Source of the DNA: Lachnospiraceae bacterium AM48-27BH
GTDB taxonomy: Bacteria; Bacillota; Clostridia; Lachnospirales; Lachnospiraceae
Assembly: GCA_003478355.1 (NCBI GenBank)
Contig: QUFC01000004.1
Location: 1 to 64,000, forward strand
Direction: 5' to 3'
Length of the DNA stretch: 64,000 nt
Made by a program: the position numbers and the translations under genes
Part shown: positions 2,374-28,445 of the stretch, one piece after another
Position numbering within the stretch: position 1 is the stretch's first letter
Layout: the number at the start of each line of letters is the position of its first letter
The notes under the pieces: generated by a model
Databases searched by the model: none
What the model was told of the DNA's origin: nothing
Seen by the model: the letters and a program-made list of their open reading frames with translations, nothing else

Positions 2374-5300
2374 ATGCTTAAGAGAACTATATTTTCTTAT
2401 ATAGTACCTGTGGCGGCAGTGGCAGCGTTTATTGGCGGTGGTGTAGGACTGGCAGGAAGGAATACCAGCTCTTTTAATGGAGATGGCTATGTCCTGACAG
2501 CAGCAGATGAGAGCGCCAACGGAGGAGTGGTGGAAACTGTCGGAGCAGCAGAACCAACCAGCGTTTATTTTTCAGCAGGAACCAAGTACCGCGTGCAGTA
2601 TCCATCCACTGCGGTATTTAAAGATATTGAAGGCTCCAAACAGAAGATCAATTTTGACAGCTTCATCCATTATGGGGATGATTCTATCAGTGCACTGACT
2701 TCAGGTGTTCTGGTGAATATGGATGATCTGGGAACCGGTGTGGTCAATCACTACGGTACAGATGCCAATGTCGTATTGGTATCCGATGGAGACGGCTATT
2801 ATGTGGAGAATAACGGGAACCAGGTTTCTTTTACAAACTTTATGTGGAAACTGTCGGACACCCGTTTTTTGCTGTCCTCTCCATCCCTGGCATTGACACT
2901 GCCGGATGGTTCCAGCCAGAAGGTCAGCGGCTATGTGGAAGCGGAGTATGTCGAGGATGGAGTCATCCGTCTGACCAGCCATGACGCTTCCTGGATGGTA
3001 GTCGCAGACGGAACTGCTGCAGAATTTTCTGATGGTATCAGCTATGATTTTGGCGATAAGATCGTGAAGGATTCCGCAGGAAATAACCGCATGACATTCC
3101 AGGAACTGTTACTGAACGCAGATGATAATATCAAGGTCCAGTCTGCGGAAGAGTGGGTGGCACCGGAATTTGATTTCAGCGTAGAAGACGGTAAAGACGG
3201 AGCAGCCGGAGAGGCCGGAGCAGCCGGAGCAGCGGGAGCTGCTGGTGAAACTGGCGCAGCCGGAGCAGAAGGAGAAGAAGGACTGGAAGGTAAAGCCGGA
3301 GCTATGGGTGAAGAAGGAGAATCCGGTAGCGATGGCAGGACCGGTACTTCTGGTTCCAATGGTAAAGGCGGAGATTCCGGTACCAACGGTGGTAATGGTA
3401 ATAATGGTAATAATGGTAAATTGTTCGATACCGAGACCAAGTATCAGGCTTATTTCAATATTACCGAGTATGAGATGGACGCAGGTTCCCTGACGGTTAC
3501 CTTTACGGTAACGGATGAAGACGCGGTGCTGTCGCCGGAGAGTGGTAAAATTGTTCTGCAGAATCCGAATGGCTCTGCGGTTGAGTGGACTTCCCCAGAT
3601 GGCAGCTTAGTGTATACACCAGATGCGAATATTACGTTCGATGGCGATGCAACTTATAAGGTTCAGTGGAACAACTTAAATCCGGACACTCAGTATCGTC
3701 TGGTTATTTCATCCGGTTATGAGCTTCAGAATGGAACTGGTACCAGAGATTATATCAATCGTACATTCTATACGGACAGTACCGGACTTCAGTTAGATAA
3801 GATAGAAGCAGCTGATGATGGATTCACCATGAAGGTAACAAAGAAGAGTTTTTCTACTTCTTCCTCCATGCGGGTGGTGATTTCGAATAGTTCAGGGCAA
3901 GATCTATTATATAAGACCATAAGCAGCAGCGATTTTAGTGATGGAAAACTGGAATTAGACAGTACTCTATTTGATCTGGCAGATGGAGGCGGTATGACCA
4001 ATACAGCCCTTAAGTCCAATACCTCCTATACGATCCGTCTGGATAATATGGTAGGAAGCCAGGCGATTCCAACAGGTAATACGCAGACTTGGAAAACTCT
4101 GAAGAAGACACCTGTCATTAAATCCTCCAAACCAACCGGATATGCAGTAGAGTCCCAATATTTCAGCTTATATCTGGATGATGTAGAGGATAATGATAAT
4201 GCGATTCAGGGATATCGTTTTGAAATCTATACACCAGGTGGTACAAAGCCGGTAAGAACGATCAATTCTGCAAAGAGAACCGATGTGGCGGCATATGTGG
4301 ATGACGCAAATAGTACACTTCCGGATGACCAGAAGCTTCAACGCGGCGTGAAGTATCAGGTGAAGGTTGTTGTGATCTATTATGATAATGAAAAAACGGC
4401 AGAGATCGAGTCCGCCATGTCTGATCAGTTTATTATGAGCGATGCAGGAGGAATATCTGTTGTGTTTCAGAGAGATACCACAGATACCTCTGGGGATCAG
4501 ACAAAGTTAAAAGGTGATGTGATCATCAATCCTGGTAACTATAAAATCGCAGTAACAGAAAAATATCCTATGGAGATCCGGGTAGATGGAATCAATTTCT
4601 ACAAGGATTATAAGACTGTGAAAAACATCAGTGATTTGATCCGCAGTGCAGATACGGGATCCTATATCTACAATTTAAATCTCCAGGGTTTGAAAGCAGA
4701 TTCTTCTTATACGATTTCTGTATGGGGCTATATTGAAGAAACTCCAGGATCAGAAATCTATATTTACCGGAACTTAGGAAGCTATGTAGCAACCACAACC
4801 GCACTGGATACCATCCAGTTAGAGATGGCAGCAGCAGGTAATGGTTCCGCTCTTGGCGCTTATATTTATTTAGGACCGGCTAACGATGAGACAGACCCAA
4901 ATAACTACAGCACAACACTGAAATCCATCAAGGCAGTGGAAGTAAAACTGTATCTTGGCGCAACCGCCAATGATGATGACAGCAATATGGTTGGCGAACC
5001 TGCGATCGCAGTAGCAGATAACAGTCAGCCGGGCGTTCCATATACGAATTACATTGCTTCTACGTATTATGGAAAGAAAGGCCGTGAGGAGAACCGGATC
5101 TATTTTGATGAGAGCACTTTTGGTATGACATCAGCCAGCCTGACTGCATCCCAGTACTGCGTAAAGGTATCGGCAATTTATGACTATACCAAGTATTATC
5201 CATATGACAATGGAGAGAACCTAAGTGGTTATGCCAATGAGATTCCGATTTCCAAGAGCAGTATCACCAGCCTGACTATGAATGTAACCAACCGTCTGCC

Positions 5301-8625: not shown

Positions 8626-10566
8626 ATGGCAAGAAAATTAAATAGGAAAGCGAAAAGGTCATTTGCCATATTCACGGTTTCCGTTCTGGCTTCCGTAGGC
8701 ATGTTCTCCACGGCAGTTGTTACCACTACCCGCGCGCAGGCAGAGCGTTTTGCTCTGACTGCCGGGACGGTAGTTTATGACAATGAGTTCCGTCAGGTGG
8801 ATTTTGGCCAGGAAGGACGGTTATACCGGGACTGGGATAAGACCTATAAGCTGATTGATGAAAACAAGAAAGAATACAATTTAGGCCGCCAGACGGTGGT
8901 CTATGAACCGGCTAACAGCACCTTATCCATCTATGGAGGCGGTTACCGCTTTAACGGCGATGGAACCGTGGTACAGCTGGAAAGCAAATATCAGGTCAAC
9001 GACTTATCAGAATCTGGTTTTTACAAGCTGTCAGATCGTAAATTTGTCATGACAGGAGACAATATCCGTGATGATCAGGGAGCGGTCCAGACTTCTGGAT
9101 GGGCGTATCTGGTCGGTGATAAATCTGGAAATGTACAGGTCATTAACGAGAACCTGGACATGAAGGTGCTGGATTCCAAATACTTTGATAATGGCAATAT
9201 GAGATTTACCATCAAGGACGAGACCTTGGATCTGGGATTGGACCGCACGGTTAATCTGGCTCAGGTGATGGGCTCCTTACAGGTGGTAGAAGATCCATAT
9301 AATTTAGGACAGAAAGTATACGCCTACACCATCCGTGGCGGCGATGGCGGTTCCGGTGGTATCGGTGGAACTGGTGGAACCGGTGGTATCGGCGGAACCG
9401 GTGGCCGTGGCGGCGATGGCGGCCTTGGCGGATACGGCGGAAATGGTGGAACCGGTGGCGCTGGTGGAACCGGAGGTAACGGTGGTACTGGTGGAGCCGG
9501 TGGAAACGGTGGATCTGGCGGATCTGGCGGAAACGGTGGATCTGGTGGTAATGGTGGTAATGGTGGTGATCTGGATAACTCCGGACAGCAGGCAGTACAG
9601 GGACGACAGTCTATGGGACTGCGTCAGATCACAGCTGCTTCCAATTACGCAGATGTTACCTTTAAGATCTCCGACCCATTCGGCTATTATGGAGTCATTG
9701 ACCTGGCAATTTATGAGGTAAGTGATGATATGGATGATGCTCTTCCGGTAGATTCCATTTCTGTCAGTCCAGATGATACTGAGTACCGTTTCAAGAAGGG
9801 ACTGAAACCAGAAACCAAGTATGAAGTGGTCATCGGATATGTGCCAGAAGGAGAAGAAGAGTTCCGTAAAATGGATACCATGAGATTCTGGACAGAATCC
9901 GTAGAAAGCGCATTGAAGATTGAATTGCTAAGTGTGGATGAGATCGGATATTACGCAAAGGTGGCAGATGCTTACGATCAGGCAGAAGTGCGGCTGTGTC
10001 TCTATGATGACAGCGGCAGCATGTCAAAAGAGGTAGCTGTGGATACCGCAGAGCTTTATGGTGATGCCGGTGCATCAGGAACTATGGAGCGTCCAACGGA
10101 TGACACCCAGTTCCAGTATTACCGCTTCGAATTACAGGTAAAGGGAAGTGATGGAAACTGGAATACGATCCGCTCCACAAAGGTCCGCAATCCGAATACG
10201 TCTTCAAACAACTCTGGCAGTGGGAGCAGTTCGACCAGCGGAGGAACCACAACAGGAGGAACTACGACAGGTGGAACCACGACTGGAGGAACGACAACCG
10301 GTGGTTCTGCTTCCGGCAATTCTTTGACGATCAGCAACGATGCGGTGAACGCCGTTTCTGCTGATGATGAGACAGAAGATACAAGTCATCTGTTACCATC
10401 AGCTGAGAACGTCGAGAATCAGAAAACAGGTCAGACAGATAACCAGACAGATCAGCAGTCAGACAACGCAGAGAATGATCTGGCTGTGCAGGATCTGGAA
10501 GCATCAGGCAACAGTCAGGAATCCGGTCAGAAGACTGACACAGACAACAAAGCAGTACAGCCATAG
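8626..10566 (+). CDS. surface protein B: signal peptide, head domain, poly-GGX stalk, FN3-like domains
   Basis: A 646-residue exported protein. It has a basic N-terminus and hydrophobic segment (FAIFTVSVLASVGMFSTAVV), with a possible signal peptidase site after TRAQA near residue 39. Residues 40-237 are a head domain like that of protein A (GFYKLSDRKFVMTG versus MWKLSDTRFLLSS in A). Residues about 238-316 are almost pure Gly-Gly-X triplets (X is T, S, N, I, A, D, L), which suggests a polyglycine-II-type bundle. Two FN3-like modules follow (LKPETKYEVVIGY). After these comes a GGTTT x4 linker and an acidic, Gln/Asn/Thr-rich tail without an anchor. The start has AGGAGGAAAAC. It lies between protein A and the c-like subunit gene, in the position where an F-type operon would carry the a-subunit gene. 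Function is unknown. Confidence 0.85.
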   Translation: MARKLNRKAKRSFAIFTVSVLASVGMFSTAVVTTTRAQAERFALTAGTVVYDNEFRQVDFGQEGRLYRDWDKTYKLIDENKKEYNLGRQTVVYEPANSTLSIYGGGYRFNGDGTVVQLESKYQVNDLSESGFYKLSDRKFVMTGDNIRDDQGAVQTSGWAYLVGDKSGNVQVINENLDMKVLDSKYFDNGNMRFTIKDETLDLGLDRTVNLAQVMGSLQVVEDPYNLGQKVYAYTIRGGDGGSGGIGGTGGTGGIGGTGGRGGDGGLGGYGGNGGTGGAGGTGGNGGTGGAGGNGGSGGSGGNGGSGGNGGNGGDLDNSGQQAVQGRQSMGLRQITAASNYADVTFKISDPFGYYGVIDLAIYEVSDDMDDALPVDSISVSPDDTEYRFKKGLKPETKYEVVIGYVPEGEEEFRKMDTMRFWTESVESALKIELLSVDEIGYYAKVADAYDQAEVRLCLYDDSGSMSKEVAVDTAELYGDAGASGTMERPTDDTQFQYYRFELQVKGSDGNWNTIRSTKVRNPNTSSNNSGSGSSSTSGGTTTGGTTTGGTTTGGTTTGGSASGNSLTISNDAVNAVSADDETEDTSHLLPSAENVENQKTGQTDNQTDQQSDNAENDLAVQDLEASGNSQESGQKTDTDNKAVQP

Positions 10567-10881: not shown

Positions 10882-11673
10882 ATGCAATATATACTTATCT
10901 TTCTTGCAGTACTGGCAGTGATCCTGTGTATGAATGTATTTATCTTTCTGGCAGTCCGTCAGGCGGCGGATAAGGTGAAAGAACAGGTGGAAGGGCGTTT
11001 TATGGATGAGCTGTCATCCTTTGATGAGCTTTATGAACAGAAGGCAGCCAGACTGCAGAAATTAAAAGAGGAGCAGGAGCTGTTAAACAGCAACATTTTC
11101 CAGAAGAAAACGGATCATGAGAAAAAGACAGAGGCGAAGGCAGAAGCACCGGTAAGGACTGCTGGGAATAAAGGCTTCGATATTCCAGTATCCAGAACGG
11201 CAAATCCGGAATTTTTTAAAGAGTACCGTTATGTGCGGGATCGTTTTCGGGTGAATGCCAGAGATCTGGTGGAGGCGGTTTTAAAGCTTCCTGCAGATGA
11301 AGAGATGAAGAGGGGAAATCTGGCGGCGAAGGCCCTGGAGGTCCTTTCACAGGAAACCGCTTTTTCCATGTCCACTCTGGAAGGTGAGGAACAGCTGCAG
11401 CTGATTGGCGAGGCACTTCCAGAAGAGTGCCATTGCCTGCTTAAGATGTATCTTGAGGAACTGGAAACAGAAGAAAAACAAGATCAGTTCTGTGCGATTG
11501 GTTTCTGGGAATATTTAGGGACCACCAAAGCCCTGTACAGCGGCGATGTGGCAGTATATACTCCGGATCCGGATGCGCTGGCTGGTGAGCCTGTAACCCT
11601 GATCCAGGATGAGACCATCTGCGAAGGAGTCCGGGTCCGCAGAGGAAGCCGGATGTATGATTTTAGTATATGA
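10882..11673 (+). CDS. F-type b-like stator subunit with delta-like C-terminus
   Basis: A 263-residue protein. An N-terminal membrane helix (residues 3-25, ILIFLAVLAVILCMNVFIFL) is followed by a charged coiled coil (about 30-70) and a flexible Lys/Glu/Ala linker, as in subunit b. The last ~140 residues are helical and end in TLIQDETICEGVRVRRGSR. This resembles the C-terminal strand motif of F-type delta subunits (an I-x-GG-x-x-V-R-x-G pattern), so I read it as a b-delta fusion or b with a delta-like cap. Its position between c and alpha matches the b-delta slot of atp operons. It would be the peripheral stalk that holds the alpha/beta hexamer at the membrane. The fold assignment of the C-terminus is an inference from pattern and gene order. 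Confidence 0.72.
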   Translation: MQYILIFLAVLAVILCMNVFIFLAVRQAADKVKEQVEGRFMDELSSFDELYEQKAARLQKLKEEQELLNSNIFQKKTDHEKKTEAKAEAPVRTAGNKGFDIPVSRTANPEFFKEYRYVRDRFRVNARDLVEAVLKLPADEEMKRGNLAAKALEVLSQETAFSMSTLEGEEQLQLIGEALPEECHCLLKMYLEELETEEKQDQFCAIGFWEYLGTTKALYSGDVAVYTPDPDALAGEPVTLIQDETICEGVRVRRGSRMYDFSI

Positions 11674-11876
11674 GATACCAGGGTCAAAAGGTCAGAAGTT
11701 CGACGCAAGCTTGCTTGCAGGAGAATTTTTGACCTTGGGACCCGCACAAACATGAGTAAGTAGCCATTTTTCAAGGAAAAATGAGCGGATTACGAATGTT
11801 TTGAAGATTGCGGAAGCACATAGTGCGGAGCAATCTGGTATCAGAGGGGGCAAAAGATTTTTGACCCCAACATCAT
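11674..11876. repeat. hairpin-rich dispersed repeat inside the rotary ATPase locus
   Basis: The 225-base gap between the b/delta-like and alpha-like genes holds no gene but several inverted repeats. GATACCAGGGTCAAAAG marks the left end. CATTTTTC/GAAAAATG forms a small hairpin near 11764-11783. GATTGC/GCAATC pair at 11806-11811 and 11830-11835. A GGGG...CCCC hairpin lies at 11846-11868. The right half (GATTGC to GACCCCAACATC) recurs at 28572 and, inverted, at 57597, with a fragment at 60319. It is the only large spacer in the operon. Confidence 0.65.
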
Positions 11877-11898
11877 TTAAGGAAGGAAAAGCAAGGCA

Positions 11899-13233
11899 AT
11901 GGGCGAGTATATCAAAAACCAGGTAGATAAAAAGATTGATGCGATCAAGGAACAGAAAAATATCTATGCCGTGGGCCTGGTTACTTCCGTTACGGAGTAT
12001 GTTCTTACGGTAAAAGGACTGGAAAATGTAGCATATATGGAGAAGGTCCTGATCGATGGAGTCAGCGAGGGGTATGTCAATTCCATCCGTCAGACTGATA
12101 TCCGTGTAACTGTGGTACGTCAGCGGGGACCGATCTATATAGGAAGCCAGGTTACGGGAACAGGAGAGTCTTATAAAGCCTTTTATTCTCCTTCCAGTAT
12201 TTCCCATGTGGTCGATATCTTCGGCAATGACCGGATGACGGATGGCATTTTTGAGGATGCAGAACCGATTGAGATCGAGAACGAGCCGATCCCGATCATG
12301 GACCGTGGGACGGTAAAACGTCCGTTAGAGACGGGAATTGCCGGAATTGATCTGATCTATCCGATCGGTAAAGGCCAGAGACAGCTGATCATCGGTGATA
12401 AAAAGACAGGAAAGACCCAGATCGCCTTAGATGCTATCGCCAACCAGGCGGGCAAGGATGTGATCTGTATCTATGTGACCATTGGAAAGACTAAGAAGAA
12501 TGTCAAAAGAGTTTACCAGGAATTAATGGCTCGTGGGGCCATGAAATATACCATGATCGTGGCAGCTTTCAATGATGATAAGCCTCCGGTCATGTATCTG
12601 ACTCCTTATGTGGCAGCGACCATCGCAGAAAAGCTGATGATGGAAGGAAAGGATGTCCTTCTGGTGTTAGATGACTTAAAGCACCATGCAGATGTACACC
12701 GTCAGATCAGCCTTCTTCTGGGCAATGTACCGGGACGAGAGGCATATCCGCCGGATATTTTCTATACCCATTCCAGACTGTTAGAGCGTGGATGCCAGCA
12801 TCTGTGCGGCGGTTCTGTGACGATTCTGCCGATCGTAGAGACCAGAGGCGGTGATATTACCGGATATATTCCGACGAACATCATTTCCATTACGGACGGT
12901 CAGATCGTGCTGTCTAAGAAGAACTTCGATAAAGGACAGAAACCGGCGATCCATTATGGACTCAGTGTTTCCCGTCTGGGCGGCGCGGTTCAGACTGCGG
13001 ATATGAAAAAACTGGGTGCAGTGGTCCGCCGTGAGCTGCTGACCTATCTGGAGACCAGAGAGGTATATGAGATGGCTAATATGGATGAGATGAGCAAAGA
13101 GATGCGGGCGCGTCTTATGCGTGGAGCCAGGATTGTAGAGGGACTGACCCAGTATAAATACCAGGCAATTTCTTCCGAAAACTGTATTCAGAAGTTTAAG
13201 GCTATCATGGAGGGAGACTATGAGCATTCGTAA
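11899..13233 (+). CDS. F1-like ATPase alpha (non-catalytic) subunit
   Basis: A 444-residue homologue of AtpA, shorter than the usual ~500 at both ends. The beta-barrel is at about 20-90. Walker A GDKKTGKT is at 166-173 (AtpA: GDRQTGKT) and Walker B VLLVLDDL at 253-260. PGREAYPPDIFYTHSRLLER at 278-297 is almost identical to true alpha subunits. ETRGGDITGYIPTN follows, and SVSRLGG carries the Arg finger at R359. The catalytic GER motif of beta is replaced by IGKTKKN, as expected for a non-catalytic subunit. It would alternate with the beta-like subunit in a cytoplasmic hexamer. The start has AAGGAAGG. It overlaps the gamma-like gene by 14 bases, suggesting coupled translation. It belongs to this specialised complex rather than the housekeeping ATP synthase, judging by its neighbours. 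Confidence 0.93.
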   Translation: MGEYIKNQVDKKIDAIKEQKNIYAVGLVTSVTEYVLTVKGLENVAYMEKVLIDGVSEGYVNSIRQTDIRVTVVRQRGPIYIGSQVTGTGESYKAFYSPSSISHVVDIFGNDRMTDGIFEDAEPIEIENEPIPIMDRGTVKRPLETGIAGIDLIYPIGKGQRQLIIGDKKTGKTQIALDAIANQAGKDVICIYVTIGKTKKNVKRVYQELMARGAMKYTMIVAAFNDDKPPVMYLTPYVAATIAEKLMMEGKDVLLVLDDLKHHADVHRQISLLLGNVPGREAYPPDIFYTHSRLLERGCQHLCGGSVTILPIVETRGGDITGYIPTNIISITDGQIVLSKKNFDKGQKPAIHYGLSVSRLGGAVQTADMKKLGAVVRRELLTYLETREVYEMANMDEMSKEMRARLMRGARIVEGLTQYKYQAISSENCIQKFKAIMEGDYEHS

Positions 13234-14042: not shown

Positions 14043-15686
<1,644 letters not shown>

Positions 15687-17049: not shown

Positions 17050-20000
17050 ATGAAGAAAATCTTGGGAATGGCTGGATTGCTGATCGCGGCAGTCATTTTT
17101 GCCTATACATTCCGGTTAAAAACCGTAGGCTACCTGGATACTTCTGTTATGGCAGTGACAGACCGGCAGATGACAGGTACGCTGAAAGCGGGAATCTCAG
17201 ATCATGAGGACCGCAGGATCGTAACCTTACAGAAGTATCAGGCAGCGGAGCCTCTCTACAGCAGAGGCAACCGCTATTATCTGGGGCAGGAGAAGACACA
17301 GCTTGATATCTCCTACCCATTTTATGTTAACTCAGGAACTTCTCTGTATTTTATGACAGACCAGACGAAGCTGATCACCAGTGATTTTGCAGCCTTTGAT
17401 TCTTATAATGGACTGTTTCTGAGTGATGGAAAGGCGTATACCAGCTTAGACGGAAGTTCTGATATGATGGAGCTGGCTGACGAGGAAGAATATATCATGA
17501 CTTCCATCGGCGGTGGAATCTATCAGAACCTGCAGCCGATGAAAGTAACCTCCGACAGTAAAGAGAACGATTATCGGTTAAACAGCTTTTTATATCTGGA
17601 TGACAACATGATCCGTGCTTATTGCTATGAGGATGATGCACTGGTGTATATGGAGAATCCAGTTTCGGTCAGCAGCCGTGTGTCGATCGGTTCCTTGAAT
17701 ATGAGCTATTCCGAGTTTCTGGGATATTTAAAGACTGCTGCAGGTAATTCTGATTTCAGTACCGGTATTGATATGGAACGACAGGATCAGCCGAATACAG
17801 ACTTAAACGAAGAGCGCAGCCATGAAGAGGGACAGCGTCAGACCGCTGATCCGAAGGTACAGGAAGCGCTTCCGGCAGATGTGGCGGAAGCTGCCAATGG
17901 AACATCGGGAGCAGTAGGTGGTGAAGTAGCTGCTCCAGCCAATGATGAGAAAGGCTTGAGTCCAGAAAATAGCAAGAATGGTGATGGCATCCTGGATAGC
18001 GGAGATTCAGACCAAAAGGGCTCTACGAGTGGCGAAGGTGACGAAGGCTCCGGTGGAAGCAGGGGAGACATTGGCGGCGGTGGTGATTCCGGCGGTTCCG
18101 GTGGCGGAAGCAATGGTGGAGGCTCTGACCGGAATGATGGTTCTTCCAGCGGTAGTTCCGACAGTGGTTCAGGAGCAGCCAATGGTTCTGATAATGGCAA
18201 TGGTTCCGGTGATGGCAATCAGGACGGCGGTAATCATGATGGCAACACCAGTGGCGGTAATGGCAGCAATGGCAGTCAGAACTCCGGTAATGGTTCTGGT
18301 CAGGGTCAGGGAACCGGTGGTGAAAAACCAAACAACCCAGATGACAAAGTGTTCCATGAGCCAAAAGTAACGATGGATGCGCCGGAGATGGGTGTTTATT
18401 ATCTGAAGTCATCCATTCATATTGATGACCCGGATGGACGTCTGGTACGAGTAATCATCCGTGCTTATTTAAACGGGAAGCAGGGCGGCCGTAAAAACTT
18501 AAAATCTGATGCAGATTTCAAGATCCAGAACCTGCGTCCAGGCGAAACCTACGAGATCAAGGGCGAGATGGTATACCGGAACGAGTTAGGCGTGAAGGTG
18601 ACTAAGCCGTTTATGGAGAATATCGAGGTAAAAACCAAAGACTTAGATACTCTGGCGCCTCTGACTCTGAATTTCGAGGATGCAGATACTTATGCGACTC
18701 AGAGTATTTCCATTAAAAATATGATTTTGACGGGACCGAAAGCAAAGGATGATTCGGATGAGGTTCTGATCACTTATGCTAACCGCGTGAAAGTAGTGGT
18801 AAAGGGATATGAAGATCAGGATGAGAATCTGGGAAGTACTTTGGTGCGGAAATTACGTCAGGGAGAAAAAGTCAGCTGGACCTCCGGAGAAGATTTTAAG
18901 TCCAACAGCAGCTATGAATATCGGGTTGATGTGCAGGACCGTTTCGGAAACAGCCTTCAGCTGACTGCTGACAGCCGGACAGAAGGACATACAAGGACCT
19001 GTAAGATTGCGCCTAAGGCAGCGATGTCTGAGATGGATAACCAGGTAGGCAGCCAGACAGTCGGTATTCAGTTAACGAATACGGATAAGGTATCTATGAC
19101 GAATCTGCGTTTGAAGATCACAGATTTAGAGGGTAAGGTACTTCCGGCTTTTGCAGGCTCAGACAGCTACTATTATCCATTGGATGCTTCTGCTTCCGAT
19201 CTGCAGCAGGTGGATATCACCATGCTTCCTACAGGAATTAATATTGTAGCAGTCGTAGAGGCAGATTTTGATCTGGGAGACAAACCGCAGGCCAATCTTC
19301 TGACTAAGAGGGAGATCGGAAGAATTTCTCTTTATACGGCTCCGATCAGCCGTCTTGGTTCTGTTTATACCAATATTACGACCGCTGATGTTACCGCATC
19401 ATCGGTAAATATGACATTTACCATCGATCAGGACAAGACGCTGGAAGGACTTCTGGAACTGATGACCCAGGCAAGAGTCCTGATCAGTGCACCAGACGGA
19501 ACCATTGTATACAACAGCATGGCAGATGCTGGAACGAAGGTTAGCGGCGTCAGCCAGTCATCGGAACTGACCAGTGGAAAGATCAGTGTTGGTCTGGCTT
19601 CCAATTATCTGTTTGATAAAGAACGGTTAAGCGGAGATGGATGGACAAAGGAAAATGATGATTCCTTCATCATCCAGAGATCTAATTCTGTCAGCAGTAT
19701 CCCACAGGTAAAGATATCCCAGCCATCAGGAAAAATCTGTGATAATCCATGGGAGGCTCTGAAATCAGGAGGAAGGGTAACACTGTCCTTCCCAAGAAAG
19801 AGCGACCAATTTGCAGCAGGTTCCTTTCAGTCCATGACCCAGTATCAGATCACAGTACAGGCAGTGGCAACCCAGGCGGGAATCAGCCATTCTGTAGGAT
19901 ATGCAGGAAACATCAGCAGCTTTAAGACATTAAGACAGGCTCCGGAGTTTGAATACAGTGACGCATTTACGATTGCTGATCAGTATTCCATCTATGGATT

Positions 20001-20343
20001 CCGGATCAATGACCCGGACGGCACGATCCCGGGCGGACAGGTGCAGATGCGTATCTCCACCAATGGTAGTGTGGTGATGGCCAGGAATTTAGCCACCAAT
20101 ACGCCTGAACCAGAAGATCTGGTGATCTCCGATCTGCGTCAGGGCAATACTTATCTGATCACCTTTATGACAACTTTGTACAATGAAGGCTACGATTCTT
20201 CCACTCAGGGAGAAAAGACCTTCAGTCAGCAGTTCCAGTTTACTGTTGGTGAGGAGGCTTCCGGTACCATTCAGTTAAATGGTCTGAATAACAATATGTT
20301 GTCTAAGATCCAGGTATCTATGGCAGGTAACAACGGCGCCTGA
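17050..20343 (+). CDS. giant surface protein D, N-terminal section (upstream of a frameshift)
   Basis: The first 1,097 residues of a giant exported protein. A hydrophobic anchor (about 4-20, ILGMAGLLIAAVIFAYTF) is followed by a head domain (25-235, with SIGGGIYQNLQPMKVTS and FLYLDDNMIRAYC strands resembling A-C). An acidic linker and a long Gly/Ser/Asn/Asp low-complexity stalk (about 320-430) come next, and then beta modules with FN3-like strands (LRPGETYEIKGEMVY, LRQGNTYLITFMTT). It ends at TGA right after AGNNGA. The next frame back (-1) continues without a stop as LIDYKYQVQVYGAAG, exactly where this module should go on, so this is not the true C-terminus. One extra C in GGCGCC would restore the frame. 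AAAGGAG precedes the start. Confidence 0.85.
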   Translation: MKKILGMAGLLIAAVIFAYTFRLKTVGYLDTSVMAVTDRQMTGTLKAGISDHEDRRIVTLQKYQAAEPLYSRGNRYYLGQEKTQLDISYPFYVNSGTSLYFMTDQTKLITSDFAAFDSYNGLFLSDGKAYTSLDGSSDMMELADEEEYIMTSIGGGIYQNLQPMKVTSDSKENDYRLNSFLYLDDNMIRAYCYEDDALVYMENPVSVSSRVSIGSLNMSYSEFLGYLKTAAGNSDFSTGIDMERQDQPNTDLNEERSHEEGQRQTADPKVQEALPADVAEAANGTSGAVGGEVAAPANDEKGLSPENSKNGDGILDSGDSDQKGSTSGEGDEGSGGSRGDIGGGGDSGGSGGGSNGGGSDRNDGSSSGSSDSGSGAANGSDNGNGSGDGNQDGGNHDGNTSGGNGSNGSQNSGNGSGQGQGTGGEKPNNPDDKVFHEPKVTMDAPEMGVYYLKSSIHIDDPDGRLVRVIIRAYLNGKQGGRKNLKSDADFKIQNLRPGETYEIKGEMVYRNELGVKVTKPFMENIEVKTKDLDTLAPLTLNFEDADTYATQSISIKNMILTGPKAKDDSDEVLITYANRVKVVVKGYEDQDENLGSTLVRKLRQGEKVSWTSGEDFKSNSSYEYRVDVQDRFGNSLQLTADSRTEGHTRTCKIAPKAAMSEMDNQVGSQTVGIQLTNTDKVSMTNLRLKITDLEGKVLPAFAGSDSYYYPLDASASDLQQVDITMLPTGINIVAVVEADFDLGDKPQANLLTKREIGRISLYTAPISRLGSVYTNITTADVTASSVNMTFTIDQDKTLEGLLELMTQARVLISAPDGTIVYNSMADAGTKVSGVSQSSELTSGKISVGLASNYLFDKERLSGDGWTKENDDSFIIQRSNSVSSIPQVKISQPSGKICDNPWEALKSGGRVTLSFPRKSDQFAAGSFQSMTQYQITVQAVATQAGISHSVGYAGNISSFKTLRQAPEFEYSDAFTIADQYSIYGFRINDPDGTIPGGQVQMRISTNGSVVMARNLATNTPEPEDLVISDLRQGNTYLITFMTTLYNEGYDSSTQGEKTFSQQFQFTVGEEASGTIQLNGLNNNMLSKIQVSMAGNNGA

Positions 20344-23300
20344 TCGATTATAAGTACCAGGTTCAGGTATACGGAGCAGCCGGCGTTGATACATCGAATA
20401 CCAAGGTACTTCAGAGCCTTCTGGAGACATGGGATTCTGATAAGCTTCCAATGAATATGGATGGTTTTACCAAGGAGTATGAGTATCAGTGTGAGAAAAA
20501 CTGGAAATATATCATGCGCCTGGTGGTCAATGTCCGTGGTTATCAGGTTATTCTGGATGATGTCAGCTTCACAACCGAGGGCGAGATCATTGCGATCACG
20601 ACATGGAAAGATTATACGGATAGCAATGGCAAGAAGGTTGATGGACTTTGCTCAGCTATGAATAAGAATAAGACCGGTAAGTTCGTAGTAACCCAGGATA
20701 TGGTAAAGGACAGCAATGACTGGGTAGGAAGCACAGTTGATCCATTTAATGGAACCCTGGATTTCCAGGGACATACCATGACGACGGAGGTTGTCAATGC
20801 AGACGGAAGCAAGACCTACTATGGAAAACCAATGTTTAGTGCCTTGGGCAGTGAAGGTGTGGTAGAGAACATCGTCTACGATTGGACCTGGGATAACAGC
20901 ATCTATGATTCTTATTCCAGCTTTTATCGGTGGACATCTCTGGTACAATGGAACTGGGGAACGATCCGTAACGTGAAGATAAACGTAAATATGAGGGGAC
21001 GTCAGTATGTCAGTGAATTAGGCGGCATTGTGTTTACGAACTATGCGTCCGGTGTCATTGAAAACTTTGTAGTAAGCCTTCAGAATGAGTACTATGTAAC
21101 CAAGAGCAGTGGACCAATCTGCTATAGTAACTATGGACAGATCCGCAATGGTTATGTGTATAGTGGAGGCACAGGAGGTACGAATGGTATTACTGCAGGA
21201 AGTGGTATTTACGGTGGTAATAGCTCTTCAAGCCGTGCTCATGTAGGTGCAATTGGATATAATTACGCAAGTGGTCTTGTAGAAGATGTATTCAGCTTGA
21301 TCAACATTTCCATTGAAACGGGTACTGACATGTTCTATGTAGGTGGAGTGGCAGGCTATAACGGCGGTATTGTCCGTAATTCTTTCTGGGTCGGAGATAT
21401 CTATTCCTATGGATATGATGAGAATCAGAAGCAGACAGTTTCTACCCTTTACCGGACTGGCGGAGGAATCGTAGGAACTAAGTCGGGAAGCGCTGTGGTG
21501 GAAAATCTGTACAACATTTCCCTTCAGCCGGATCCGATTGATTATGGTATGGATGTATCCCTGACCAAGAGGACGAGAAATTATGCTTCAACGGAAACCA
21601 TCTCCCGCTTATGGGATTTTGTATGGTATGAGTCCATGTTTAACTCTTCAGCAAATTTTGATGTGCGGGAGCAGTTGGATGCAGGATATTATCCAAAACT
21701 GCTGATGTCGGATGTGATGGGCGGTGTTCAGGATGATGTAAAACTTCCACCATCCAGCGGTGTGAATATCCCAACCTACATTTCCAATGTCGTGAAGGAG
21801 CAGGGAGCAGACTGGGCAGTGGTGGATCTGTATTTCAACAACCCGCATCTCCAGGAGATCAGGAAGCTGTATATTGAGAATCTGACAGCGGAGATTCTGG
21901 AGCAGCACAGTGAGTCCTCCTTCTATGTGGTAAAAGTTAAGCTGACAGATCCGAAGGTATTCCGGTCTTCTTACCGGTTGACTAACTTTGATTACCGGAT
22001 CACGGAGACCTCTGACAGCACCTCACTTGGTAATCCATCAGAAGCGGCAGTGATCAATGTAAAGATGTACAAACAGATCATAGAACCAGAAGACTGGGCG
22101 CAGATCGGACTTGATCCGGCCAGCAATTATCAGTTAGAGGCGGACTTAGACTTATCCGATGTTCTGACAGATCAGCTGGTGGTAAAAGGAAGCTTTACCG
22201 GTGAGTTAGATGGTAATGGATATACCATTTCCAATCTGTCTCCAAGTGGTAATTCTGCATACATCTTCGAGAAGGTATCCGGCGGAACGATCAAGGATCT
22301 GAACGTGGAGAATCTGGAGCTGGTGGTCAATGACAGCCAGCAGGCGAAGGTTGGCGCATTATATGGAGGATTTATCGGAACAGCAGAAAATGGAACAACG
22401 CTTGACCATATCCGTTTAGCGAATGTTACGATGAATGGAATGCCTGGAGCAGCCGGTTCCCTGGTGGGACAGGCCAGCAATACTTCTGTGACCAGCTGCC
22501 GGGCAGAGCAGGTGGTATTGACCACGGCTTCCTATACGGGCTCTTCCTTAAACATCGGAGGACTGCTTGGTTTGGTGCTTGATACATCGGTATCGAACTG
22601 CTATGTGTCTTCTCTGAATCTGACTGCGGCACAGGGCTTTGCATCGACTGGAATCGGTGGACTCATCGGCTCCACCAGTGGAAGTGGAACCGTATCGAAG
22701 GTATATGCGCATGGTAATATGAAGGTATCCTTCACTTCCGTGGGAGGTGTCATCGGACGAAGTGAAACGGATGTCACCAACGCATGGAGCATGATGGATA
22801 TTAACAGCAACATGGGACAGCTGGGTGGAATTGTCGGAGTCATGGGAAGTGGAATCCTTCAGAATACACTTTCCATCGGAGATCTGGCTACAGGCAATAC
22901 CAGTAATCTGGGACGTATCTACGGTGGTACTGCCAGTGGATCGGCACAGATTACGTTGACCAATGGTGTTGCATTTGATGGCCAGCTTTATGGAAATACG
23001 ACATCCTCTGTCCTGAAAGGCACGAATGCAACGGCGCTGGTAACGGCGGAAGAGCTGGAGACAGAGGTTCCGTATCGTGATCAGGCCCGTCTGGGAACTG
23101 GATTTGATATTACTGGCGAGGCAGGCGGTTATCCGGTGACTTCCGGTTATATGCCGATGCTGATGGACAGTGATGGCGGTATTCTGGCAGATCAGACTCC
23201 GGTTCTTCGAAAGGATGGAAGACTGAAGATCACCAATGTCAATCTGGCAGCCAACCAGCAGGGCAGCTATACGCTGATTGTCAATGCAGCTACCGGAGAC

Positions 23301-26300
23301 AGCAGCTTCCGCTTAAAGGGTGTGGAGTGTGATGCTTTTGAACTGAATGGAAGCTCTGGTGTACAGGATGACGCTAAGGATGGCATCGTAGGTCAGAAGT
23401 GGGTGATCCGGTATTCAGATGTGACTCTGAAGCAGTATCTCAGCACCTACGCTGTGACGGTTGTATTTGAAAATACCGAAGGGGTAGAACAGAGATTGTC
23501 CTATCAGCTGACCGGCAATTATTATCGTCGGATCTCGAATGCCAATGAATGGGTAAGTGTGATGTCCCAGTATGGACAGAACTTTGAGAACTTCGAGATT
23601 ACGAATAATATTGACCTGTCCCAGGTAAAACAGAGCGTGATCGAGGAACAGAATCTGGTGAATTTAAAGATCAACTCCTTAAGAAGCAGCTCAGGAGCAA
23701 ACTATACAGTCAAAGGTCTGCATTATAATGCGGTGGTTCAAAGTGAAGCCATGATCGCATCACTGTCTGGAACCATGGAAAATATCACATTTGAGGATAT
23801 TTCCATCAGTAACCGGTCCAAAGCTCTGGGTGGAAATAATGTGGGTCTGATCGGTCAGAATAACGGAACCATTCAGAATACAGTCTTCAAGAAAATCGTG
23901 GTAGACGGATACAGCGCCCAGAATGTAGGATGCGTAGGCAAGAATAATGGTGTGATCGATCAGGTTACGGTCCAGGATGTGAAGATCACCTCTGACCAGA
24001 ATGGAGCCCAGTATGTAGGAGGAATGGTCGGATATAACACAGGAACGGTTACCCATATCACAGCAGAGGGTACAGAACATGGAACGACTTACCGGGCTCA
24101 TTACAATGGCAATACGACTCCGCATATGGCAGACTACAGCTATGCTGTAGTTGGCAAGAATTATACCGGTGGTGTAATTGGATATTCCACTTCCGGATAC
24201 AGTGATATTGCCTTAAAAGCGGCCTATGTAAAAGGAAATAAGCACGTAGGAGGAATCTGTTCCTGGATCGAGGCAGTTGTGGCAGAGAACCTGACGGTAG
24301 GAGATCCGGAGGACATGACAAAAGCAGTCCGGATCGAAGGCAGCGACCAGTATGTAGGTGGAATTATTGGTAAAAGCGCTGGCAGTGCTGGTGAGGGAGT
24401 ATACAGCACGATTAAAAATGCGAAGCTGTATAATGCCTTTGTGATCGGAAAGGCCTATACCGGTGGAATCCTTGGTGGAACAGGAAAATGGTATATGAGA
24501 TCCTATGATTCCATGGTTGTCCATGCAACAATCAATGGCAGCGAGTATGTAGGCGGTATTGTCGGAAATTACAACTACAATTACAGAAACTATGTGGAAG
24601 ATTGCCGGATTAAGGGAACTTCTAATATAGGAGGTATCCAGGGCCAGAGCGGTGCCATTGGAGAGGGAATCAGAGTCCTGGGCTGTAACATCGAGGGAAG
24701 CGGAGACTCCGTAGGTGGTATTGTCGGAAATCATGGAAATGATTCTATCCGAAGCGCTTTGGTAGCCGACTGCGTGGTAAAGGGCAACCAGTATGTGGGA
24801 GGTGCAGCAGGAGATTCCAAAAATCCAATTTATGCAGTCAGTGTATGGAATACGAAGGTATCCGGACAAAGCATGGTTGGCGGACTTGCAGGGCGCGCGA
24901 TCGGATATGATTATTATCGGTGCAGCATTGATGCAGAGGTATCCGCAGACTTAAATAAAGCAGGTGGAGCTTTTGGCGAAATCCTTGGTTTTAACGGCAC
25001 GGATACCAACGCTTCCAGACAGAGGACAACGGCTTATAATTTAGTAATCGGGGGAACGGTATCAGCTGGTTCCATGGCAGGTGGTTTTGCCGGAGCCTAC
25101 AGTATTACACCGGCTCTTCTGGATATGAATGGTAATGTGAAAAATTCAGGAACTCCAAAACTGGAATCGAACCAGTATTACCGGATCACGTTGATGAATC
25201 AGGTAAGCTGTACCAGTGATGCGCAGTCGGATCAGGATACCTGCAGTGTATGGGCATATTTTACCCCGATCAACTCAGTTTCCAATCTGGTGCCAGGACA
25301 AGAAGGTTATACTTCTGCAATTCGTCTGAATGGTATCGAGAAAAAAGATGGAGGCAATGACGAAGGTGGAGCAGTATGGAGTGGCGTCAAAGTGACAGCG
25401 AAGTCTTCTGGTAACGAGATTTATCCGTTAAAGACGTATCTGTCCAATGATTTCCAGAGCTGGAGTGATGTGAAGTCTGATTCTGGCAAGTATAAGAAGA
25501 ACGTCGTTGCCGATATTGCGGATCTGAAGACAGAAGCGTTTTGGAAGAATAACCAGAGCATGAATAATAGTAATTATATGATTACCGGTAAAGTATCCGG
25601 TAAGTATAGTGCTGATGTGGTAACCGCAGGAAAAGCGCCTCTGTTCCACAATAACTGGTACATTGTTCAGAGTGAACGAGGGGCAGATGGACTGCCGATG
25701 TTGGATAAGGATGGAAAACCAACAGGAAATTATAAGAACCTATTGGCATTCCTGGATGGAAATGGAACCTATACGGCGATTGAAGGTGGAAACTATGTGA
25801 CCAGGAGTCTCCCGGTATTTGAGTTCCCGAAGGCAGGAGACACGGACTGGAAGGGCACCGGCACCACAACCTTAACCGCTGGTGAGAACCTGATGGTTTA
25901 TGCGTCTGATGTGGCTTCGCTTAACCTGGAAGTGGCAGATGAGGTGGTAGAGGCATCAGCTGGCGCAGTGGCCCAGAGCGGAACAGATGAACTGGTGCAG
26001 GCAGATACAGATCCGATCCTGTTGACTGTGTCCGATAGCCAGGGCGTGATCTTCGCAGCTCCGGTGACCCAGAAGGTATACACCATCCCGTATGACTTCT
26101 CCACAACCCTGACCGCAGAACTGACTCAGGGGGATGTGGTTCAGGAGTATGAGATCTCTGCGAGAAATCTGGTACATACGGTCATGAACTACGATGGAGA
26201 TTATTATTACATGACTGGAAGCGGTATCCGAAGCTCTGCATGGGCGGATGATACAACTGCTTCTAAGGCGAAGACAACGGCTTCTGGTGCGGCTGACAAG

Positions 26301-28445
26301 TCTGGAAACGCAGCAAAGACAGCGCTTTCCGGCGCAGCTGGCAATTCCGCATCCGCAGATCAGGAAGAAACCGTGGTTCAGGGCTTATGTGAAGGCCAGT
26401 TCTTAAATATGTGGGCTGGTAAGGCGCTGGATGTGAACGGTGACGTCTGGGATCTGACCTCCAGAACGGTGGAAGCACGTTCCGTAGTGGACCGTGATGC
26501 CATGGCAGCGAAAGCAGAAGCGGTGCTGAATGTGGCTGGTGGTCAGGCAGTCGCAGCATTTTCCATGGATGATGCAGCAGGAGTTGACGGAACCGATAGC
26601 GCAAATGGCACTCAGGATATGGTTGATGCCATGAAGCAGCTGGCAGACATCGAAAGTCAGCCATTATACCAGTTCCAGTATGGCGATACCACTTTGGAGG
26701 TTTACGGCAAAGATACCATTTCTGTAAAGGGCGGGGAAGAGAATACTCTGGACAGCTTGATTTACGTGAAGAATGGTTATCTGTACCCGGTAGACAATGA
26801 GCTGGATGCGGTAACGGGAGCAATTCTGGCGGACGCTTACGGTGATAATCGTTATCTGTCTGTATTGACCGGCGAAGGCGTGATCCAGGATCTGGGTAAT
26901 GACCTGACACTGCCAGACGGATTTAAGAACTGCAGCATCGCAGAACTGGCAGATAACTTAGCAAGCGATTCCAGAGTGGCGATCGGTCGTTACAAGAACG
27001 GTACTGCATTTGCATTTGATTACATCACAGGTAAGACGATTGATCTGTACGAGGATGAGTATGATACCGGCAATGATGTGGGAATCTTTGATTACGCAAA
27101 AGACTGGATCGTATCCAAGGCAGGTAGCTGGTTTGGTCTGAACAATTCCGGCTACAAAGGCGCCCAGAACATGATCGCCCAGTACCAGCAGGGTGGTTCC
27201 AATGGCATTCTTGGCCAGCTTCGTCAGATTGAACGTACCATTACCACATGGAAGGATGGAGCAGATACCACAGGAAATGCCGATAGCAAGGACGGAACTG
27301 CAAGTGGCGTTGATAACGCAGAAGGTACGGATGGAGCAGGTCTGACAGGCGATGCGGATCAGAATAGTGGTGCGGCTCAGACCGGTGGTTCCGAGCAGAA
27401 TCGTGGTTCGGATCAGAATGGTGCTTTGGATCAGAATAGCGGTTCAGATCAGAGTAAGACTGCAGATCAGGCTTCTGACCAGAAAGATAATACCGATCTG
27501 GCAGATGATTCCGACACCACAACCGTGGATGGCAGTCAGAACAGTCTGGGTGCAGCATCTGAGAAGAAAGCTTCTGAGAAAAAGGCTTCTGAAAAGGCAG
27601 ATGCCGACGCTGAGAAGGCAGATGCTCAGGAGAAAGACTCTAAGAACGCTGGAAATCAGGAACAGTCTGGAGATAAGGCGCAGACCGGAGTTCAGACTGA
27701 TGCAGAGAAATCGGATGCAGGACAGACCTCTGGTGACAGCCAGAGTAATCAGGCATCTGGAGCAGATCAGACTGCAAAGGATGGTCAGCAGGCTCAGGAG
27801 ATCAGCCAGTCTGAGAAGGAGCAGAAGACCGGGGCAGGAGACAAGACTGCATCGGATGAGAAATCAGAAACCGGTGATCCGACTGCAACAGGAAAGAAAT
27901 CAGAGTCCAGTGATCCGGCTGTAACAGGTGAGAAGACAGAAAGCAGTAATCCGGTTGTGACAGGCGAGAAGACAGAAACCGGTGATCAGGCTGTGACAGG
28001 CGAGAAGTCAGAAGCTGTTGATCCGGCTGCAGCAGGCCAGAAAGCCGAAGCTGGTGACCAGGCTGTATCCGGTCAGACAGATGCAGATAAGACTACATCC
28101 GCCGGTGAAACGACAGAGACCGCAGCTGATGGCACAAAAGTCCAGCAGTCCCAGGCAAAGGCAAAGGATCAGCTGGTAACCATCTACAATGCGGATACCA
28201 AGTCCTACGAGGTTTATGACGTAGAAGACTTCCTTTCCAGTCCAAAGAGCGAGATCGCGACCATCAGCGAGAAAGTGAAAGAGCTGACGAAACAGGGGCT
28301 GATCAATAACGCTACGGACTTAAAGGCAGAGGATACCATAACGGATACTAACCGCTATGGAATCTGGATCTACTGTGGAATCGCAGCAGCGATCCTCCTT
28401 CTGTTAGGCTATCTTGCCGACCGGAAGCGGAGACAGTGGAAGTAA
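20343..28445 (+). CDS. giant surface protein D, C-terminal section: GLUG-like beta array, repeats, C-terminal membrane anchor
   Basis: About 2,700 residues that continue the preceding section in the -1 frame. There is no ribosome site or signal peptide at the first ATG (20451), so this part is not an independent gene. Its core is a long array of GLUG-like repeats built on YVGGIVG / YTGGVIGY / NVGCVGKNNG, spaced about 30-60 residues apart. This pattern usually forms a beta-helix or spike. The last ~500 residues change to Asp/Gln/Asn/Lys/Glu low complexity with a 12-residue repeat. They end in a membrane helix (IWIYCGIAAAILLLLGYLA) and basic tail DRKRRQWK. With an anchor at each end, the ~3,800-residue protein could form a loop from the membrane, or the N-terminal segment may be a cleaved signal. 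A terminator follows at 28471. Confidence 0.82.
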   Translation: MDYKYQVQVYGAAGVDTSNTKVLQSLLETWDSDKLPMNMDGFTKEYEYQCEKNWKYIMRLVVNVRGYQVILDDVSFTTEGEIIAITTWKDYTDSNGKKVDGLCSAMNKNKTGKFVVTQDMVKDSNDWVGSTVDPFNGTLDFQGHTMTTEVVNADGSKTYYGKPMFSALGSEGVVENIVYDWTWDNSIYDSYSSFYRWTSLVQWNWGTIRNVKINVNMRGRQYVSELGGIVFTNYASGVIENFVVSLQNEYYVTKSSGPICYSNYGQIRNGYVYSGGTGGTNGITAGSGIYGGNSSSSRAHVGAIGYNYASGLVEDVFSLINISIETGTDMFYVGGVAGYNGGIVRNSFWVGDIYSYGYDENQKQTVSTLYRTGGGIVGTKSGSAVVENLYNISLQPDPIDYGMDVSLTKRTRNYASTETISRLWDFVWYESMFNSSANFDVREQLDAGYYPKLLMSDVMGGVQDDVKLPPSSGVNIPTYISNVVKEQGADWAVVDLYFNNPHLQEIRKLYIENLTAEILEQHSESSFYVVKVKLTDPKVFRSSYRLTNFDYRITETSDSTSLGNPSEAAVINVKMYKQIIEPEDWAQIGLDPASNYQLEADLDLSDVLTDQLVVKGSFTGELDGNGYTISNLSPSGNSAYIFEKVSGGTIKDLNVENLELVVNDSQQAKVGALYGGFIGTAENGTTLDHIRLANVTMNGMPGAAGSLVGQASNTSVTSCRAEQVVLTTASYTGSSLNIGGLLGLVLDTSVSNCYVSSLNLTAAQGFASTGIGGLIGSTSGSGTVSKVYAHGNMKVSFTSVGGVIGRSETDVTNAWSMMDINSNMGQLGGIVGVMGSGILQNTLSIGDLATGNTSNLGRIYGGTASGSAQITLTNGVAFDGQLYGNTTSSVLKGTNATALVTAEELETEVPYRDQARLGTGFDITGEAGGYPVTSGYMPMLMDSDGGILADQTPVLRKDGRLKITNVNLAANQQGSYTLIVNAATGDSSFRLKGVECDAFELNGSSGVQDDAKDGIVGQKWVIRYSDVTLKQYLSTYAVTVVFENTEGVEQRLSYQLTGNYYRRISNANEWVSVMSQYGQNFENFEITNNIDLSQVKQSVIEEQNLVNLKINSLRSSSGANYTVKGLHYNAVVQSEAMIASLSGTMENITFEDISISNRSKALGGNNVGLIGQNNGTIQNTVFKKIVVDGYSAQNVGCVGKNNGVIDQVTVQDVKITSDQNGAQYVGGMVGYNTGTVTHITAEGTEHGTTYRAHYNGNTTPHMADYSYAVVGKNYTGGVIGYSTSGYSDIALKAAYVKGNKHVGGICSWIEAVVAENLTVGDPEDMTKAVRIEGSDQYVGGIIGKSAGSAGEGVYSTIKNAKLYNAFVIGKAYTGGILGGTGKWYMRSYDSMVVHATINGSEYVGGIVGNYNYNYRNYVEDCRIKGTSNIGGIQGQSGAIGEGIRVLGCNIEGSGDSVGGIVGNHGNDSIRSALVADCVVKGNQYVGGAAGDSKNPIYAVSVWNTKVSGQSMVGGLAGRAIGYDYYRCSIDAEVSADLNKAGGAFGEILGFNGTDTNASRQRTTAYNLVIGGTVSAGSMAGGFAGAYSITPALLDMNGNVKNSGTPKLESNQYYRITLMNQVSCTSDAQSDQDTCSVWAYFTPINSVSNLVPGQEGYTSAIRLNGIEKKDGGNDEGGAVWSGVKVTAKSSGNEIYPLKTYLSNDFQSWSDVKSDSGKYKKNVVADIADLKTEAFWKNNQSMNNSNYMITGKVSGKYSADVVTAGKAPLFHNNWYIVQSERGADGLPMLDKDGKPTGNYKNLLAFLDGNGTYTAIEGGNYVTRSLPVFEFPKAGDTDWKGTGTTTLTAGENLMVYASDVASLNLEVADEVVEASAGAVAQSGTDELVQADTDPILLTVSDSQGVIFAAPVTQKVYTIPYDFSTTLTAELTQGDVVQEYEISARNLVHTVMNYDGDYYYMTGSGIRSSAWADDTTASKAKTTASGAADKSGNAAKTALSGAAGNSASADQEETVVQGLCEGQFLNMWAGKALDVNGDVWDLTSRTVEARSVVDRDAMAAKAEAVLNVAGGQAVAAFSMDDAAGVDGTDSANGTQDMVDAMKQLADIESQPLYQFQYGDTTLEVYGKDTISVKGGEENTLDSLIYVKNGYLYPVDNELDAVTGAILADAYGDNRYLSVLTGEGVIQDLGNDLTLPDGFKNCSIAELADNLASDSRVAIGRYKNGTAFAFDYITGKTIDLYEDEYDTGNDVGIFDYAKDWIVSKAGSWFGLNNSGYKGAQNMIAQYQQGGSNGILGQLRQIERTITTWKDGADTTGNADSKDGTASGVDNAEGTDGAGLTGDADQNSGAAQTGGSEQNRGSDQNGALDQNSGSDQSKTADQASDQKDNTDLADDSDTTTVDGSQNSLGAASEKKASEKKASEKADADAEKADAQEKDSKNAGNQEQSGDKAQTGVQTDAEKSDAGQTSGDSQSNQASGADQTAKDGQQAQEISQSEKEQKTGAGDKTASDEKSETGDPTATGKKSESSDPAVTGEKTESSNPVVTGEKTETGDQAVTGEKSEAVDPAAAGQKAEAGDQAVSGQTDADKTTSAGETTETAADGTKVQQSQAKAKDQLVTIYNADTKSYEVYDVEDFLSSPKSEIATISEKVKELTKQGLINNATDLKAEDTITDTNRYGIWIYCGIAAAILLLLGYLADRKRRQWK
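27861..28076 (+). repeat. six 36-nt in-frame tandem repeats encoding 12-residue units
   Basis: Six consecutive units of 36 bases encode variants of K-S/T-E-x-x-D/N-P/Q-x-V-T-G-E (for example KSESSDPAVTGE, KTESSNPVVTGE, KTETGDQAVTGE). They sit in the wall-spanning low-complexity part of giant protein D and could vary in copy number by slippage. Confidence 0.8.

Follow-up and report, generated by a model that had tools for sequence, protein, structure and literature searches.

The window analysed here comprises 64,000 nucleotides (nt) of Lachnospiraceae bacterium AM48-27BH (positions 1 to 64,000 of contig QUFC01000004.1), and the system in question is a run of eleven genes at 2374-28445, all on the plus strand, in which the subunit genes of a divergent F1-type ATPase lie among genes for surface proteins. 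A sequence-only reading of this DNA had proposed genes for c, b/delta, alpha, gamma, beta and epsilon flanked by exported proteins A and B on one side and by a five-helix protein (hereafter P5), C and D on the other, with spacings that are short or overlapping save for one insertion. All of these genes are present in the order A, B, c, b, alpha, gamma, beta, epsilon, P5, C, D, and the spacings from A to D are 27, 67, 2, 225, -14, 10, -13, -11, about -62 and 27 nt, i.e., within -62 to 67 nt except for the 225-nt gap before alpha; the value of about -62 nt between P5 and C presumes that C starts at 16228. The features are as follows (aa, amino acids; TM, transmembrane segment).

2374-8598, +: A, exported protein of 2,074 aa with an N-terminal TM or signal, a membrane-proximal domain as in B, a collagen-like segment and an fn3-like domain
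8626-10566, +: B, exported protein of 646 aa with a signal sequence, a domain homologous to that of A and a GGx-repeat segment
10634-10879, +: c, ring-type subunit of 81 aa with the loop GRNPETK and T in place of the ion-binding carboxylate
10882-11673, +: b, 263 aa, with an N-terminal TM, a coiled-coil stalk and a delta-like C-terminal domain
11674-11898, +: intergenic insert, strongly self-complementary, pieces of which are found again elsewhere in the window
11899-13233, +: alpha, 444 aa, with intact Walker A and arginine finger and a short C-terminal domain
13220-14035, +: gamma, rotor shaft of 271 aa (PF00231, 3e-25)
14046-15443, +: beta, catalytic subunit of 465 aa with GGAGVGKT and GERSREG intact
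15431-15697, +: epsilon, 88 aa, N-terminal domain only, assigned by position and weak similarity (14 bits; profile comparison 2.9%)
15687-16289, +: P5, five-helix membrane protein of 200 aa, candidate degenerate subunit a
16228-17022, +: C, about 264 aa, with a single-TM anchor and an all-beta ectodomain; alternative longer TTG start at 16174
17050-20343, +: first part of D, with an N-terminal TM and a Gly/Ser/Asn-rich region; the frame stops here
20451-28445, +: second part of D (D2) in a different frame, with a giant extracellular region and a C-terminal TM

Pfam families scored above cut-off for c (ATP-synt_C, 32.9 bits with a cut-off of 24), alpha (ATP-synt_ab, 247 bits), beta (ATP-synt_ab, 225 bits), gamma (ATP-synt, 89.8 bits) and A (collagen-like PF01391, 35.7 bits; fn3, 29.5 bits), and none did so for b, epsilon, P5, B, C or either part of D. 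Relatives of the gene set were collected with a profile built from a 17-sequence alpha alignment in one scan of 84,980 species genomes, and the best 80 of 150 confirmed stretches were kept.

The c subunit is recognisable as a ring protein, with a glycine-rich first helix, a loop (GRNPETK) that is invariant in a 16-row alignment, and a profile that matches solved c-rings, the best being 4bem, which we take to be the Acetobacterium woodii c-ring. Its ion-binding column was compared in 78 sequences (the window and 77 of the 80 loci, some of them close relatives) and holds T in 39, A in 27, V in 6, S in 5 and M in 1, so that neither Glu nor any other acidic residue occurs there in 78/78. Four further copies (genomes G676, G1174, G002 and G003) are likewise non-acidic at this column, and G002 and G003 provide a control within one genome: the ordinary c has Glu 18 residues past the loop proline, and the new c has Ser or Ala there. 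The second TM of c is very hydrophobic, and an acidic residue occurs anywhere within it in L056 alone, one position earlier than the ion column. Loss of the ion-binding carboxylate of c abolishes ion transport. On the other side of the ion path, the sequence-only reading had stated that the set lacks an ordinary subunit a, and at the level of sequence this stands: a Pfam scan of A, B, c, b, alpha, gamma, beta, epsilon, P5, C, D1 and D2 of the window found no PF00119. At the level of structure, the predicted fold of P5 is weakly a-like.

By hydropathy P5 has four TM, and its AlphaFold2 model has five helices (predicted local distance difference test score, pLDDT, 91.5), consisting of a helix at 13-35, a short helix at 41-51, a hairpin at 55-98 and long helices at 103-132 and 137-194. 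A Foldseek search of this model against 350,542 chains gave ranks 1-5 and 7, with weak E-values of 0.29-0.80, to ATP synthase Fo chains that by name and title we take for subunit a; the VIA Z scores of Fo chains were 8.4-9.8 over 139-156 residues, and unrelated helix bundles reached 11.2 over about 104-127 residues. Sequence profiles gave no match between P5 and subunit a, and the Pfam scan of P5 returned HemY_N alone, below cut-off. Taking R-L-F-x-N as the motif of subunit a, our own motif matching put the expected arginine at P5 column 120, which is hydrophobic in 39/39 sequences; R or K stands at column 124 of that helix in 7/39 and at column 67, in the second TM, in 31/39. The conserved arginine thus appears to be absent from the fifth helix of P5, and single P5s may have one. 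On balance we regard P5 as quite probably a degenerate subunit a. In ten loci (L021, L022, L023, L027, L028, L029, L031, L032, L044 and L067) the place of P5 and C is taken by a single open reading frame (ORF), which has 371-416 aa and 5-6 TM and matches C, and those of L023 and L029 also match P5; these ORFs tie the five-helix protein to the ectodomain protein.

A peripheral stalk with b and delta is present as well, the delta-like character of the b C-terminus being of moderate strength. Over its C-terminal 100 positions the b profile matches delta genes of ordinary atp operons (best E-value 1.8e-6), and hhalign gave 68.9% for b against delta and 0.1% for the reversed control; b is therefore likely to be a b-delta fusion, as judged from these alignments. 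Read from its sequences, the set appears to be an F1 motor whose rotor and stalk are kept, whose ion path is removed and which is tied to giant surface proteins.

The ATPase signatures, which had been said to be retained, are intact throughout: Walker A and the arginine finger in 75/75 alphas, and Walker A and GERxREG in 71/71 betas, with looser patterns in beta giving 70/71 for a Walker-B-like and 42/71 for a DELSEED-like motif. The alpha subunit aligns from residue 4-5 with the N-termini of F1 alphas; its score against the nearest F-type model is 433 and does not reach the cut-off of 554, and beta narrowly passes the NCBIfam atpD model (475.6 with a cut-off of 462.85). We reconstructed an alpha tree of 40 rows that holds 17 new alphas, ordinary F alphas, and mycoplasma alphas of type 3 (6 rows) and type 2 (4 rows). 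The 17 new alphas form one clade (support 98/99), and ordinary F, type 3 and type 2 alphas each form a group of their own. Ordinary F alphas from eight genomes that also gave a new alpha fall outside the clade (e.g., L088/L033, both Kineothrix). In approximately unbiased (AU) tests the new alphas could be placed in one clade with types 2 and 3 (p 0.567) or in one clade with F (p 0.503). A beta tree, computed without type 2 rows, also revealed a separate group, with lower support (88 by the SH-like approximate likelihood ratio test, SH-aLRT). Alpha and, with less support, beta thus stand apart from the ordinary F1 subunits that these genomes also encode, and the grouping with ordinary ATP synthases that would have spoken against the sequence-only reading is not seen.

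Five Bacilli (L037, L045, L053, L056 and L069) have an alpha with an acidic, partly repeated C-terminal tail of 160-650 residues; these tails share a terminal E-E-[VT]-[IL]-like motif and might serve to dock a partner in the cytoplasm.

Among the surface proteins, A and B have in common a domain after the N-terminal TM, for which profile comparison without the TM gave 97.8% and the reversed control 31% over one column; corresponding values were 66% for A-C (control 2%) and 21% for B-C (control 3.5%), and profile comparison did not demonstrate a shared domain between D and A, B or C. The collagen-like segment of A spans approximately residues 273-348, and collagen-like adhesin models match A far below their cut-offs. 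Runs of at least 12 Gly-x-x occur in 20/45 A and 32/61 B proteins, so that such rods are common in A and B and not universal. A C-terminal TM was found in 0/57 A and 0/64 B proteins, and LPxTG in the last 25 residues in 0/57 A. The AlphaFold2 model of C (pLDDT 90.3) consists of a TM anchor and an all-beta ectodomain, for which we found no fold match in the PDB and no Pfam family.

D had been described as a protein of about 3,800 residues; it is a single ORF in five relatives and is split by one frame change in the window. From stop to stop D has 3,177 codons in G676 and 3,724 in G1174, and coordinate arithmetic on two overlapping loci each gives about 3,660 codons in Kineothrix, 4,040 in Chakrabartyella and 3,260 in G036. 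A hydrophobic segment is present at both ends in 6/6 cases (the window and the five relatives), and the N-terminal one of Chakrabartyella resembles a cleavable signal. In the window the D frame ends at 20343, and the frame of D2, with its first ATG at 20451, is by our reading open back to at least 20343. The frame change at 20341-20451 may stem from misassembly, mutation or phase variation.

Of the 80 kept stretches 75 belong to Bacillota (59 of them to Clostridia), three to Actinomycetota, one to Mycoplasmatota and one to a record without a rank. Most holders are metagenome-assembled genomes (MAGs), and the isolates that bear a name are Kineothrix alysoides, Chakrabartyella piscis and Bifidobacterium colobi. 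Genes were tallied by single-query phmmer, counting only loci whose flank would reach the gene. The motor genes were found in 73/75 loci for c, 77/79 for b, 75/76 for gamma, 74/74 for beta, 73/74 for epsilon and 49/72 for P5, and the surface genes in 57/61 for A, 63/65 for B, 65/68 for C and 54/63 for D. The proposed clustering with surface genes is conserved, as at least one of A, B, C and D was found in all 72 loci with room. A surface ORF of at least 1,000 aa is present in 39/40 loci having 9 kb on either side; the exception, L004, has three surface ORFs of 735-769 aa, one of them cut by the contig piece.

The exact order A-B-c-b-alpha-gamma-beta-epsilon-P5-C-D was recovered by single-query phmmer in 33/54 fully covered loci, and we therefore conclude that the eleven-gene order exceeds chance. 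An unseen P5 is the sole deviation in 11 of the 21 non-exact loci (L021, L022, L023, L027, L029, L034, L044, L053, L061, L062 and L065). No phmmer match was obtained to P5 and A in L028, to b in L071, or to b, P5 and C in L063; L009, L077 and L078 deviate in P5 and in A or D, and L056 and L069 stop at C, which in L056 is adjoined by ThiI. L002 and L004 are rearranged, and in their genomes (G002 and G003) c and B lie on alpha's contig and strand, about 10-14 kb downstream of it. Since rearranged loci keep c and B on the same contig, parts of the operon change place yet remain together.

Profiles of b or B alone served as a blind search for the operon in 398 genomes of the Kineothrix phylum. The b profile gave 17 matches at an E-value of 0.001, three of them strong (1e-73 or better): G021 and G026, which were known beforehand, and G676, which is new and bears the full operon. 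The B profile was strong in the same three genomes and gave one weak partial match besides. Within the Kineothrix family b was found in 4/299 genomes, including one new holder, G1174, which has the full operon too; its c is identical to that of L013, so the two may be the same species. The gene set is thus rare, patchy and complete where looked at, and its patchy presence fits an accessory function. The copy of Bifidobacterium colobi (L026) has a G+C content (GC) of 0.597, against 0.589 in another region of the assembly, which speaks against contamination; this actinobacterial copy suggests transfer across phyla. In one MAG, C.10_6, L005 and L006 are two copies of the operon.

Subunit a is present somewhere in 27/40 genomes and was not found in 13/40. 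In 11 of these 13 there are merely two or three PF00006 matches in total, too few for a second alpha/beta pair, so that no other ATP synthase was found in 11/40 genomes; this absence is provisional, as most are MAGs of unknown completeness. The sequence-only reading had left room for the set to be the functional enzyme of a genome that has no other. With a c that lacks the ion-binding carboxylate, the operon cannot be a usual ATP synthase even where none other was found. On the Chakrabartyella piscis chromosome (L061, L094) an ordinary atp operon lies at about 631.5-638.5 kb, close upstream, the new A being already open at 643.9 kb.

A literature search found no description of this gene set. 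The set has homologues of the alpha, beta, gamma, c, b and delta parts of F-type ATP synthase, the last of them delta-like, and the same nucleotide-binding motifs, whereas here c lacks the carboxylate, the set has no PF00119 a, alpha forms its own clade, and exported proteins are linked. As with N-ATPases, a second F-type operon stands beside the housekeeping one; according to PMC4154653 the N-type lacks delta and has atpR. The scores of the new subunits lie far below those needed for N-ATPase membership (alpha, TIGR03324, 354.7 of 750.5; beta, TIGR03305, 422.1 of 752).

Closer parallels come from mycoplasmas, where F1-like ATPases of types 2 and 3 can serve surface systems (PMC11864180, PMC12994834, PMC3369863). 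The type 3 F1-like X0 ATPase is second to a genuine F1F0, is experimentally tied to a surface system, and has extra F1-like alpha, beta, gamma and epsilon clustered with membrane and surface proteins (PMC12994834, PMC3369863). In the type 2 G1-ATPase an F1-like hexamer and gamma are thought to drive giant surface proteins by force transmitted across the membrane (PMC11864180). There are differences in both cases. Type 3 is described with a 12-TM protein, no b homologue and an alpha without the N-terminal helix (PMC12994834), and the seven genes listed for it include no c, whereas here there are c, b-delta, P5 and four exported proteins; type 2 is described from four mycoplasma species, with a beta N-terminal extension, a dimer and a 12-TM protein (PMC11864180). 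Hydropathy revealed no 12-TM protein in the window operon: c has two TM, P5 four, and the others at most one at either end. Family models of type 3 (NF045936, 294.5 of 520 needed; NF045934, 387.7 of 570) and of type 2 (NF045863, 371.3 of 600; NF045858, 363.4 of 850) are not reached. The mycoplasma F1-like X0 ATPases, the concept named as closest by the sequence-only reading, are the nearest analogue, and the new subunits stay below their family cut-offs. As the described clusters of types 2 and 3 include a 12-TM protein but neither c nor b, the new set belongs to neither type and may yet work like them. The principle would be the same; the membrane sector is different and more complete, and the spread outside mycoplasmas is wide.

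The explanation that we consider probable is that a divergent F1-type ATPase drives or mechanically cycles surface proteins by ATP-driven rotation, with no ion pumping or ATP synthesis; we infer that the surface proteins are moved, reshaped or cycled by the motor. In such a scheme alpha3beta3 would hydrolyse ATP and rotate gamma-epsilon-c, while the b-delta stalk and P5, the latter at the place of subunit a, would keep alpha3beta3 still. The c-ring would rotate within the membrane uncoupled from ions, torque would be received above the ring or P5 by the membrane-proximal domains of A and B, and perhaps by C and D, and the long external rods would be turned, pulled or reset; D could be wound or tensioned if rotor and stator each held one of its ends. 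More tentatively, one may postulate a new class of rotary machine outside the mycoplasmas, in which the ion path is cut on both sides and the ring has become a drive shaft that winds giant extracellular proteins. Here c without a carboxylate and an a-like P5 without the conserved arginine would mark the two cuts, rotor, stator and catalysis would be retained, and D, fixed at either end, would act as a loop of over 3,000 residues, much as a rope does on a winch.

Other uses of such an ATPase must be weighed. By analogy with a proposal for mycoplasma type 3 (PMC12994834), the motor could power binding and release by surface proteins and not motion, ATP turnover forcing receptors open to free processed ligand. 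That paper reports the type 3 ATPase as needed for MIB-MIP function and as co-purifying with MIB-MIP under cross-linking, and A bears fn3-like and collagen-like parts as in adhesins; A-D have, however, no protease domain and no ligand-naming family above cut-off, and we judge this alternative unlikely. An export or assembly machine, whose ring would unfold or thread the giant A-D across the membrane in the manner of type III secretion ATPases, strikes us as improbable: A, B, C and D have at their N-termini a TM or signal segment of the sort that Sec handles, none of the proteins of the window operon was recognised as an export gate, and gamma, b-delta and c are retained, which an export ATPase would not need, although there is distant kinship with FliI/SctN ATPases and candidate substrates lie within the same operon.

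If the complex were instead static or regulatory, an ATP-sensing anchor for giant surface proteins that does not rotate continuously, it would need no ion load, and the long acidic alpha tails of some Bacilli could dock its partners. Nucleotide-binding and arginine-finger motifs in every tested sequence, together with a retained gamma, are nevertheless unexpected for a scaffold and make this highly improbable. We give almost no credence to a genuine ATP synthase or ion pump whose ion site has been displaced, or to a decaying duplicate of the housekeeping operon. The atpD-level score of beta, the basic residues in P5, the 11 genomes where this is the only candidate enzyme, and the ordinary atp operon close by in Chakrabartyella would accord with one or the other, but the invariably non-acidic ion column in a very hydrophobic helix and the lack of PF00119 in the scanned window proteins argue against the former, ordinary subunit a occurs as well in the 27 genomes mentioned, and uniform conservation across classes speaks against decay.

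Rotary ATPases are textbook ion machines, and to our knowledge ion coupling is absent only from the F1-like motors of mycoplasmas, for which the way across the membrane has yet to be worked out. The present set keeps a recognisable rotor and stalk and exchanges only the ion path for surface proteins, which makes it a testable question by what route torque from F1 might act beyond the membrane; cultured holders for such tests are Kineothrix alysoides, Chakrabartyella piscis and Bifidobacterium colobi. There is also an annotation hazard, as databases carry some alphas of the set under the name 'F0F1 ATP synthase subunit alpha', with which the beta score above the atpD cut-off is in keeping, and a genome could thereby be credited with an ATP synthase that is not there.

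The 225-nt insert between b and alpha, which folds strongly, is possibly a small repeat element; parts of its sequence are found again at 28558-28613 and 57593-57638. Just upstream of A, a minus-strand ORF at 937-2208 has by eye the look of a mobile-element nuclease or transposase. Downstream, at 32053-45501, translations read by eye point to molybdenum cofactor genes, a formate-dehydrogenase-like oxidoreductase and a molybdate-type ABC transporter.
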